This document shows, one piece after another, positions 29,071-34,185 of a stretch of DNA of 64,000 nucleotides. The DNA comes from Poronia punctata. Taxonomy: Eukaryota; Ascomycota; Sordariomycetes; Xylariales; Xylariaceae. A program made the position numbers and the translations under genes. The stretch is taken from the NCBI GenBank assembly GCA_022579005.1, contig MU401492.1, forward strand, positions 175,712 to 239,711, written 5' to 3'. Every line of letters starts with the position of its first letter. Positions within the stretch are counted from its first letter, which is position 1. The notes under the pieces were generated by a model. The model did no database searches and was not told the origin of the DNA. It saw nothing but the letters and a program-made list of their open reading frames with translations.

Positions 29071-31273
29071 CTACTGATCAGCCACCGTGAGCTCATCAAA
29101 GTCATCCAGCAACTCGTCCATATCAATACCCGGCCCATCTTCGTCGCCCTCATCAGTTTCGGCGATTGACATCTCATCCGGCTGTGGTTGTTTCTTTGGC
29201 TGTTTATACAGCTGTACACCAGCACGGAAGTCTGCGTCTTGCTCGATATCCTCCAGGAACTGCTCAAACTCCTGGTCCATGCGTTCCTGGTCGCCCTTCT
29301 TAGGTAGCAACTCTCCCTCGTCCTTGGCCATTCTCTTGACCTTCCAGACCCGCTTTCTGTTCCGTCTTCGGTTCGGGAAGTGCTTCTTGACGACTACTAC
29401 ATCCGGTATCCTGGATGAGTACGTGCTGGACTGCTCAATCGCCTCGAATTCGGGGTTGTTAAAGTTGGTGCCCGATAGCATGTAGCCCATTACGGAATCT
29501 CCCGCATGCAGCAGGCCTCCCAAGTGCGTCCGGGCATAATAGGTCTTGTTATTTGTGCCCAAGTCTGTAGTCTTCGCAAGCTCCAGTTCAGCTAAGACCC
29601 ATCTTCCTTTCGTAGGGCTGTAAACACATTAGCAAACAGTTTCAAAGACGAACATCAAGATGGGTAAAATGCATAAACATACCCAACAAGTTCACAATCC
29701 ATTACCATGAACTCCACCAAATCCTTAACCTCTGCTAAGGCCCCGAACGGAGCTCGCCAGTATACCGGAGAGCTAATTTCGGCAGTCTGAAGCGTGGTGG
29801 GGTCAAGTAGGTAGGCCGAAGTGCCTATCTTGTAACATATCGAAAGGGGCGAGATATTTCCGGCTTGCTTAGCAAGTTGTATCGGAATCGCAACCAGGTC
29901 ATCTTTGCAAATCGGCATAATTTCTACCGAAAAGGAGAACTTGAAGCTCTTCTTTGCAGTGTGGCTGTCTTGGGAGATGAGTTCTGATGATTTCTTGACC
30001 CGCACAGGGACAACGGATGTGAGAAAATCAACAAACTAAGGTTCTGTTAGCATACAACATATCCAGACCGAAAATATTCTCTCACCTTTTCGGCCTGATT
30101 CCTCGCACTAAAGAAGAAATCAATACCGTCCTTCGCTTCTTTGATGTTGATGGTATCACGATGCGCCCCATGCTTTAAGATAAGCTGTTCAAGGTAGAGA
30201 AATGTTCGTTTCTGATGTACACTGTCAGTACCTCGTTGATCTCGGCGTCGAAGTCTTTACCATCCCTGCAGGGTTGGTGATTGTGGCCAAACTTACATGT
30301 AAAACCTTTTGTCGCACTTGTACGCTTGCTCGCCATACATTCGCTGTGTAAGACTTGGCACATTCGGGGCATTGTTGATAAGCAACCACTATACTCGAGT
30401 TAGCAAAGAACGTTTCCCGGAACGGTGCCAGTGATGGAGGCCAAGACACTCTCCAAGATCATAGCCGTATTATAATCGAAAACGCGGAAGTGTAGAGTTT
30501 AAACCTACCATATGTGACTTCAAGTGCTTGCTGCATCACCTTGTCTTCTGCCACAGCTGCTTGTACTACAAGTTTGACCTTAATTCTTCGACTGTGTGGT
30601 TCCGTCCAGATGAACGAGGCGTCTATTATTCGTGTCCGGTTCAGACTGAGCTTTTTGAGACAGAGAGCAAGGAGTTCTCGGCTCTCTAGTTGTGCTGTTA
30701 CCCAGCTCGACGGTGCTGTGATCGAAGTATATTTGTTAGCGAAAAGAAATCGGTTCCGTATCAGTTTCTAAGGCGGACGTCGTTGTCGGTGTTTAAAGCT
30801 GTAATAGTCACTTACTATAGAGACGTTAGTTTCGATTCCGCAGTGCTTAGATGACAGTTTGAGAGGGCGTTTACTACATACCGTTGAAGCCATCTGTCAC
30901 AGTCTCTGCAAAAGTGTAGCGTTGCCTCTCTTTGGATGCCTTGGGAGATGTCTTTGGTAAGTTTGAAGCAGTCGTAGCATTTCGCATCGATGGCGGTCAT
31001 TCCATCTATGGGCGCTCCGCAATCCGCACAAAGAATACTGCAATACCAAGTTAGAAATGTCCTCAGTCAACGGGGAACCGTAAATATTGCCGTGGAGACC
31101 CATCGTGCTGAAACCACAAGGCGACAAACAAGCGACATCATATGAAAAGAGAACACGGGAATCGTTCTGGTAAAAGCTAATCAGATGGGCGTAACGTACG
31201 TTGCTGTTGGACCTCGAACCTCCTCCCGAGCCGCTATGGGCATCGGGGCGTCTATGTCCAAATCCATCGACAT
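29071..31273 (-). CDS. NMD3: 60S ribosomal export adaptor NMD3 (517 aa), contains a twin intron
   Basis: Adaptor that links pre-60S subunits to Crm1 for nuclear export. Seven exons: 31273-31200, 31037-30883, 30715-30509, 30388-30297, 30211-30086, 30035-29683 and 29617-29071. Four CxxC zinc-binding pairs are visible (LCADC, KCYDC, FCRDC, QCPEC), followed by ESRELLALCLKKL, HKRTFLYLEQLILKHG, the SPVYWRAPFGAL segment, a basic nuclear-localisation stretch (RRRNRKRVWK) and an acidic, leucine-containing export-signal tail. The start MSMDLDIDAPMPIA is typical of fungal Nmd3. Exons 2 and 3 join in frame only if two nested introns are removed in turn (30716-30882), giving WLQPPSSWVTAQL. Length matches the family. 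No defect apart from this intron structure was seen. Confidence 0.95.
30716..30882 (-). other. NMD3: spliceosomal twin intron (stwintron) in NMD3
   Basis: A 167-nt non-coding insert between CTT CAA C and CA CCG TCG. The internal intron is 30881-30815 (67 nt): GTATGT donor, ACTAACG branch region, TATAG acceptor. Its removal joins the G at 30882 to TAAGTG at 30814-30809, making a perfect GTAAGTG donor. The external intron then runs to 30716 (CGCTAAC branch region, CACAG acceptor; 100 nt in all). Excision joins C to CA, giving a Pro codon within LQPPSSW. Every single-step GT-AG choice using the 30881 donor that I tried meets a stop or loses the frame. By position this is a donor-interrupting [D1,2] stwintron. 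Confidence 0.85.
30815..30881 (-). other. NMD3: internal intron of the NMD3 stwintron
   Basis: A complete 67-nt GT-AG intron (GTATGT ... TATAG, with ACTAACG about 10 nt before the acceptor). It lies between the first and second base of the external intron's donor. Confidence 0.83.
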
Positions 31274-31845: not shown

Positions 31846-34185
31846 TCATCTCCTACGACCAGCTCCCCCGGCCCCAGTATCGCCCCTGTCAGTGAGAGAT
31901 ACCACTTCGCCAATGCCAGCGGCTTCCTGCTCGTCTTCAAGTGCCGTGATTTCCTCTCTGCAATCCCACCATTTATCTTCGCTTAGTTCGAATGCTTTGG
32001 TTTTGATCTCCTTGACTGTCAGAGTCTCCGGCTGGATTCCTTTCCACCTGAGGCTGACCATCAAGATGTCCTGCCACTCTGCAGATGTTCTGGCAAAGAA
32101 CTCCCGTCGAGACTCAAAGGGCTAGAAGAACTCGTTAGTATAGCGTTAGCCAAGTCAAGATACGCGCGCACTTACTCGGGGATGGGGGAGTCCGTCGTCC
32201 TCTACCACTGAGGTGGCAACTGTGTCGGCTTCGCTGTCGTCGTCGCCAAATTCTGATGAGGGGGCCGTCGAGGCTGAATCTATACTTGCGAGATCGTCGA
32301 TCTGTTTATTTTTCCGTTTGCTTGGAGATACCAATTTCTCCTGCGGTTCATAGTCGTCGTCTTCGTCTTCGTCATATTCATCATCCTCCTCATCATCCTC
32401 GTCTTCTTCTTCATCATCATCTTCGTCGTCGGAACCCTATAGAAACACAGTCAGATAATGCATGGGTCCGAGCTAGGATAGTACAGCTTGAGGGGTGAGA
32501 TCGACTTACAGCCCAATCTTCATCTTGCCTCTTGAAGATCTCTTTGCAGCCATCCATTTTCCCGAGATCAATGGCATATAGGTCGTCGAGGGTGTATTCT
32601 CTGTCCTTGGCCTCAAACGTGCCACCGTATATGTACAGGGTATCTTCCTGTACGGCTAACAACGCATTGAACCTTGGCGAAGGAAATTCCATTGTCACGG
32701 GCATTTCCCGGACCGGCTTGGTGGGTTCCTCCATCTCCTTATCAATCCCGAAGTCGATGTCCATGTCGTCAGCATCATCCAGAGACGATCCGGCTTGCAG
32801 TGCAGCAAGTTGTTTCAACAACTCTTCTTCGTTCGCCTGGGCCCTGCCTCGGCGGCCCACTCTTTGCTCCGAAGCACCTGTTTTCTTCTGTGTTCTTGGT
32901 TTTCTAAGCGCCATCGGGAAAAATCTATTCTTCTCAATGTTCCACGTGTATAGCTGATTGAAAAATTCACTGTCAATACCTTCCTCACTCTGTTCTACGT
33001 CGTGGACACCGCCGAAAAACAGGCCACGGCTTTTGTGATATCCCATGGTTGCCCCAGCGCGGGGAGGGTTGGGCGTGTTGGCTGGCTTCTTCCTCTTCTC
33101 CCATCTTACAGTTGGGGGTGTATTCGGCGATGCATCTGCCGCCGGCTGCGTAATGCGTAAGAAGAAGCAGTCTTGATGAACCATGGGCTTCAGAATGTTT
33201 CGCTGTCCTTGAGATGCCCCTTTTGCAGATTTGTTGGCACTGACAGTTGCTTTCACCCGGGAATAGCCGCCAAACAGGACAGCCCCTTGTTCATGGGGTA
33301 AGAATGTGAAAGAAGACCTAGCATCGGGTTTTAACTGTGCCGGAGGTAGGGTAGGATTAAACCATATGTAGTTCTAATGGGGTATGATTAGTTTGTGCAC
33401 TGCATATGATGGGCATTGGGATTGACGGACTTGTGTATCAAATAGCCAAAGATCACTTAGATATTTCGTCTGGTTTGACGTATCTTGGAACCCTAGAAAC
33501 ATCGCCGTCAGACGTCGTACGGACATGAGCCGGAATCGGCGGCAGCAGCAGTTATCATACCTCCGAATAGAATTATATAGTTCTTGTAATAAGTCATACG
33601 ATGACCACTTCTAGACGGTGGAGTTTTTCCCTTGACGTCTATACGCGTCCATTCACGGGTACTGGGTTCAAGCCGCCAGAAATCATTATAGTGGTAAAAG
33701 GTGCCCTGTTTTGGGCTACTGAATTCACCACCAAACAGAAACACAGAGTCCTTCTGGTTCCCACCTCGGCACCAAGCATGGCCGGATCTCGGGAGTGGAG
33801 CGTTAGGGGATGTAACGCAATGCCACTCATCTCTATCCGTGTAGTAGATGTTGAGGTCGTTGAAGAAGCTAGCAATGGCCCCGTTCCATATTTCACCGCC
33901 GAAAAGCAAAAGCTGGTTGCTATTGGAGGGCGAAGCCAGGAAAGTTGCCGATGCGCGAGCCTTGGGAGGGGCGTCGAGCACAGTTTCTGTGACCTTGAGG
34001 AAAAGTTCTTGTTGTTTCTTGTACTCGGCTAAAACAGCATCGATATCCACATCCTCGGCATCACTACCTTCTAGCTTCGAGGTCTTTGTTTTTTCTTTCT
34101 TCTGTGCTTTCGTCTCTTGCTTTTTCTTTTTCTCCGCTAGCTTCTGTTGCTTAGAGTCGGACTTTTTTTTCTTGTCTTTCGCCAT
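31846..34185 (-). CDS. kelch-repeat protein of the KLHDC4/Kel3 type (695 aa)
   Basis: Five exons: 34185-33561, 33492-33431, 33373-32510, 32436-32176 and 32121-31846. Introns are 68, 57, 73 and 54 bp; the second has a GTCCGT donor. A Lys-rich N-terminus (MAKDKKKKSDSKQQ) is followed by six or so kelch blades marked by LLLFGGE, VFLFGGEF, IILFGGFQDT, AVLFGGYSR, GLFFGGVHD and LYIYGGTFEA. A very acidic D/E tract follows at about residues 500-540, then a C-terminal helical segment with WQDILMVSLRWKG and WWDCREEI, typical of KLHDC4 homologues. The role in fungi is poorly known; yeast Kel3 is cytoplasmic. The frame is intact. Confidence 0.9.

Follow-up and report, generated by a model that had tools for sequence, protein, structure and literature searches.

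A probable [D1,2] spliceosomal twin intron splits a conserved motif of NMD3 in Poronia punctata

The window, a 64,000-nucleotide stretch from Poronia punctata (family Xylariaceae, order Xylariales), carries on its minus strand a gene for NMD3, a conserved ribosome-export factor that is expected to be needed. Excision of five ordinary introns together with a 167-nt insert at the second intron position gives a complete frame of 517 amino acids, with its ATG at 31273 and its stop at 29071 (Table 1). The predicted product matches the Pfam NMD3 domain (PF04981) with 258.3 bits, compared to a curated cut-off of 24.9, and its matches to NMD3_OB and NMD_SH3 both exceed their own cut-offs. It also matches the solved NMD3 chains 6n8k and 6lu8, which read FLQPPGQW and YFQPPGTW, respectively, at the site where the P. 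punctata protein reads WLQPPSSW. Over all 517 residues, the spliced product is 100% identical to the public P. punctata record P0001, an NMD3-domain-containing protein. This record is evidently derived from the same contig as the window and is an annotated protein, so the match is not proof of splicing.

Table 1. Coordinates of the NMD3 gene, its introns, the proposed twin intron and related candidates. Positions are those of the window, except for the last three rows, which give the core motif on other contigs.
Feature	Position	Strand	Basis
NMD3 gene, ATG to stop, 517 aa	29071..31273	-	gene model, P0001 identity, Pfam
NMD3 exons	31273-31200, 31037-30883, 30715-30509, 30388-30297, 30211-30086, 30035-29683, 29617-29071	-	gene model
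NMD3 ordinary intron 1, 162 nt	31038..31199	-	gene model
NMD3 ordinary intron 3, 120 nt	30389..30508	-	gene model
NMD3 ordinary intron 4, 85 nt	30212..30296	-	gene model
NMD3 ordinary intron 5, 50 nt	30036..30085	-	gene model
NMD3 ordinary intron 6, 65 nt	29618..29682	-	gene model
Predicted [D1,2] stwintron of 167 nt in phase 1; interrupts the codon for the first Pro of WLQPPSSW	30716..30882	-	motifs, gene model, enumeration
Predicted 67-nt internal intron with GTATGT donor, ACTAAC branch site and TAG acceptor	30815..30881	-	motifs, enumeration
Predicted external intron, main part: TAAGTG start, GCTAAC branch site, CAG acceptor	30716..30814	-	motifs, enumeration
G1 of the predicted external donor, separated from T2 by the internal intron	30882..30882	-	motifs, enumeration
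Rival one-intron reading, 176 nt from GTATGT to GAG, frame kept, product LQRWV	30706..30881	-	gene model; P0003
L008, prolyl-tRNA synthetase gene, 137-nt [D1,2] candidate	G000:C26:56552-56617 (core motif)	-	
L004, unnamed gene, 146-nt [D1,2] candidate	G000:C231:48267-48335 (core motif)	+	
L012, gene with [D1,2] motifs	G000:C47:170360-170423 (core motif)	+	

The insert lies between an exon 2 that ends with CTT CAA C at 30883 and an exon 3 that starts with CA CCG TCG from 30715. At its 5' end, a single G precedes a complete internal donor, forming GGTATGT at 30882-30876. The internal intron runs from GTATGT through ACTAACG to TATAG, and a second donor-like sequence, TAAGTG, adjoins it directly from 30814. 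Once the internal intron is excised, an external intron of 100 nt is left (G30882 plus 30814-30716), with the donor GTAAGTG, the branch site GCTAAC, and the acceptor CACAG. Consensus donor, branch site, and acceptor sequences are thus present in both introns, and removal of both restores WLQPPSSW in the full 517-residue frame. The sequence, coordinates, and motifs of this insert had been given in a preliminary description of the window, and all were as described when the DNA was read again. The same description had claimed that internal excision creates GTAAGTG and that a second excision then restores the frame, which was confirmed in the 517-residue gene model.

Splicing alternatives were enumerated between 30983 and 30600, using GT or GC donors, AG acceptors, introns of at least 35 nt, and DRWLQPPSSWVTAQLESRELL as the target sequence. 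Within this interval, the target was restored by none of 331 single introns and by none of 9,493 successive intron pairs, the latter ruling out two ordinary introns separated by a micro-exon. Four of the 16,033 nested combinations did restore it, and all of them were of the [D1,2] type, in which the external donor is split after its first base. In all four, the internal intron starts at 30881, the external donor begins with G30882, and the external intron ends at 30716. They differ in the internal acceptor, which lies at 30846, 30815, 30811, or 30799 and would create the external donor GCACTG, GTAAGT, GTGACT, or GCTTTA, respectively; only the acceptor at 30815 yields a consensus external donor, and the other three solutions use poorer sites. 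Of the architectures tested within 30983-30600, the [D1,2] stwintron alone restores the conserved protein. Moreover, LQPPSSW was restored by none of the 49 single introns that keep the frame open for at least 450 codons (donors 30960-30741, introns of at least 46 nt). The preliminary description had stated that single introns starting at 30881 fail with each acceptor it tried. This stands insofar as none restores PPSSW, but the list of acceptors behind it was incomplete, since acceptors 30706 (GAG), 30682, and 30646 keep the frame while losing PPSSW wholly or partly.

The chance expectation of such a motif set was estimated with a published search model for [D1,2] stwintrons, model A of PMC9024468. 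It gave two matches in the 64-kb window, compared to 0.23 expected from 100 dinucleotide shuffles. With a stricter version of the search comprising five motifs, a single match was obtained in the window, at the NMD3 insert, and none in 100 dinucleotide shuffles. The second model A match, located at 33297-33496 on the plus strand and overlapping in part, in antisense, a long reading frame of the minus strand, is probably due to chance.

The motifs, the frame arithmetic, and the agreement with the annotated protein and its homologues are direct observations; from these we infer that the insert is spliced and in which order. The spliceosome, pairing sites across short introns, would begin by removing the 67-nt internal intron, and the joining of G30882 to T30814 would create the donor GTAAGTG. 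In a canonical second reaction, the 100-nt external intron would be excised up to the CAG that ends at 30716, so that CAA C meets CA CCG TCG and the WLQPPSSW motif is restored. According to computed translations, the reading frame ends at 98 residues in unspliced RNA, at 78 residues in half-spliced RNA, and at 121 residues in RNA from which 30881 to 30716 is excised in one step, an event that keeps one G and shifts the frame. Regulation through these unspliced, half-spliced, or one-step products is possible. A broader scenario, in which the stwintron would be clade-wide (Poronia, Xylaria, and perhaps Nemania) and kept because competition between two-step and one-step excision tunes NMD3 mRNA through nonsense-mediated decay, strikes us as improbable.

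We then turned to the proteins of other species. The search found 3,761 homologues, of which 120 were listed; the listed records represent clusters at 90% identity, so that near-identical proteins are hidden behind them. The pattern CxxCx[RK][WFY]xxPPxxW is kept in 116 of the 120 homologues among the matches listed. The other four are all models from Xylaria, belonging to three species, and are disrupted at or across the stwintron junction, each in its own way. The X. arbuscula record P0004 reads CRDSPSSW, which fits the use of a donor inside exon 2 together with the external acceptor (compare the 30900/30716 pair in P. punctata), and X. hypoxylon P0026 lacks the beginning of exon 3 and reads LQRVKLV. 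A second X. arbuscula record, P0028, is frameshifted and reads LQRAVELG, which fits a one-step excision with one retained G; the corresponding one-step product of P. punctata reads LQRTVELG. Finally, X. flabelliformis P0003 reads LQRWV at the junction. In a different part of P0003, 17 extra residues are found at the position of P. punctata intron 5 and look like a retained intron. The Nemania serpens record P0002 and several Xylariaceae sp. records are intact at the junction, which is neutral regarding the presence of an intron there.

In our view, a [D1,2] stwintron that gene finders forced into single introns accounts best for these varied errors at one site. Because four Xylaria models are broken at or across the junction, a shared stwintron mishandled by annotation is suggested, and the protein records by themselves suggest that it is common to P. 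punctata and Xylaria by descent. The public NMD3 protein models of the three Xylaria species appear to be wrong at the stwintron junction, which is a practical harm. The preliminary description had proposed that the insert is a [D1,2] stwintron; the enumeration, the identity with P0001, and the Xylaria models broken at the junction all support this proposal. Taken together, it is highly probable that 30716..30882 in NMD3 is a [D1,2] spliceosomal twin intron.

The only serious rival to the stwintron, and a weak one, is one canonical 176-nt intron that would start with the GTATGT donor at 30881 and end with GAG at 30706, thereby removing part of exon 3 and replacing PPSS by R. The whole-gene frame stays open in this case (514 residues), and the predicted junction, LQRWV, is exactly that of X. 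flabelliformis P0003. However, GAG acceptors are rare in filamentous fungi (PMC9024468), and the CAG at 30716, which follows the GCTAAC branch site, stands 10 bases upstream. The proline pair that this intron would delete is kept in 116 of the 120 homologues listed, including the P. punctata record and that of Nemania serpens, and the TAG/TAAGTG junction would be left unexplained. We consider this intron very unlikely to be the one used.

Two further explanations are, in our judgment, less likely still. Excision from 30881 to 30716 in one step could be the main event, in which case the protein would be frameshifted and full-length NMD3 would be poorly expressed or not expressed at all. Such a product stops at 121 residues, whereas NMD3 is conserved and expected to be needed. 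The X. arbuscula model P0028 does contain a frameshift of this kind, but it is a gene model and not a transcript. Mis-splicing in this manner is occasionally seen in published [D1,2] stwintrons (PMC9024468 and PMC12403724); as the principal outcome at NMD3, it would be highly surprising. Alternatively, an assembly error within 30885-30810 might make a single ordinary intron look nested, since altering one base would upset the frame arithmetic. The TAG/TAAGTG hybrid junction and a complete second intron would nonetheless remain unexplained, and separate Xylaria records are disturbed at the same junction, leaving this explanation with a negligible probability.

As the preliminary description had noted, [D1,2] stwintrons are known in filamentous ascomycetes, and they are abundant in Xylariales: more than 1,500 are described in Hypoxylaceae (PMC9024468), 81 uniquely occurring ones are described in Hypoxylon sp. 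CO27-5 (PMC9024468), and 288 sequence-similar sister [D1,2] stwintrons are described in 14 Xylariales taxa of the Hypoxylaceae and Xylariaceae (PMC12403724). The NMD3 stwintron has the organization of the unique Hypoxylaceae elements and fits model A, with a G followed by a donor, an internal branch site, an HAG/TRWGY hybrid, an external branch site, and an acceptor. Its phase, 1, is the commonest one there, its length of 167 nt falls within their range of 114 to 313 nt, and, as for them, its own genome yielded no similar copy. It differs from the unique elements of PMC9024468 in lying in NMD3, in belonging to Poronia, a member of the Xylariaceae, and in being known here from DNA. With the sister elements of PMC12403724 it shares the [D1,2] type and a host in the Xylariaceae, the family of the Xylaria and Nemania genomes analyzed there, but it differs from them in that neither genomic copies nor a full NTIRE-10 were found; the main text of that paper does not mention Poronia. 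The [D1,2] stwintron of lipS in Aspergillus, which serves as a model for how an older intron can acquire an internal one (PMC5639578), is likewise of the same type and in a conserved gene, although the gene and the lineage are different.

Copies of the NMD3 stwintron were searched for in the 45-Mb genome, and only the self match was returned at E<=10 by a search that leaves out simple repeats and highly frequent words and could miss weak copies. The best near-terminal inverted stem was 7 bp long, a length reached by 15.5% of 5,000 partial shuffles, and so no long near-terminal inverted repeat was detected. The fold of the whole stwintron was not unusually stable either, as 196 of 200 shuffles folded at least as well (z +1.79). 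A sister, propagating stwintron is not supported by these results. Because no similar copy was found by this search, the fold is not unusually stable, and the near-terminal stem has only 7 bp, the NMD3 stwintron resembles the older, uniquely occurring stwintrons of PMC9024468 more than the propagating sister elements of PMC12403724.

No stwintron in NMD3 was found in the main texts of the stwintron papers searched, including PMC9024468, PMC12403724, PMC8469720, PMC5639578, and PMC6616335; PMC9024468 and PMC12403724 list their genes in supplementary tables, which may hold an NMD3 entry. Likewise, no main text was found that pairs NMD3 with "spliceosomal twin intron" or PF04981 with stwintron. 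Within these main texts, this agrees with the earlier remark that no stwintron was known to be reported at this site. The NMD3 case is a new example of a type that is abundant in Xylariales and known in hundreds (PMC9024468 and PMC12403724). Its value is that of a clean and checkable [D1,2] candidate: the gene is conserved, and the motif is one in which errors show immediately. Unrecognized stwintrons could be traced by looking for conserved proteins whose models are disrupted at a single site in several relatives, and the conservation of NMD3 would make it a good gene in which to date the gain of the internal intron.

The genome was also surveyed for other [D1,2] candidates. The pattern GGTATGT..CTAAC..AGTAAGT had three genome matches, compared to none in reversed controls, and the more relaxed GGTAWGT..CTRAC..AGTAWGT had 10, these three included, compared to one reversed control. 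For GGTGAGT..CTRAC..AGTRWGT, two genome matches were obtained versus one in the reversed control. The translations of the flanks were inspected at all 12 places, of which L002 is the NMD3 locus, and a closer look was taken at L003, L004, L007, L008, and L012. In L008, located in a prolyl-tRNA synthetase gene, removal in two steps restores WELKGVPLRIE, which matches solved synthetases, and one-step restoration from the internal donor fails with all nine acceptors tested. This candidate looks genuine and would be the second convincing [D1,2] stwintron of the genome. L004 is a plausible candidate: with a CAACAG acceptor, the two-step frame runs for 24 codons before a stop and the one-step frame stops after 6, and other acceptors also leave open frames. 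The gene at L012, which we take to be short-chain-dehydrogenase-like, probably does not contain a stwintron, as a single ordinary intron ending at CCTAG keeps the frame equally well (GGSACYDAYKPLDGQSKAA). The example of L012 indicates that matches to the [D1,2] motifs are insufficient by themselves.
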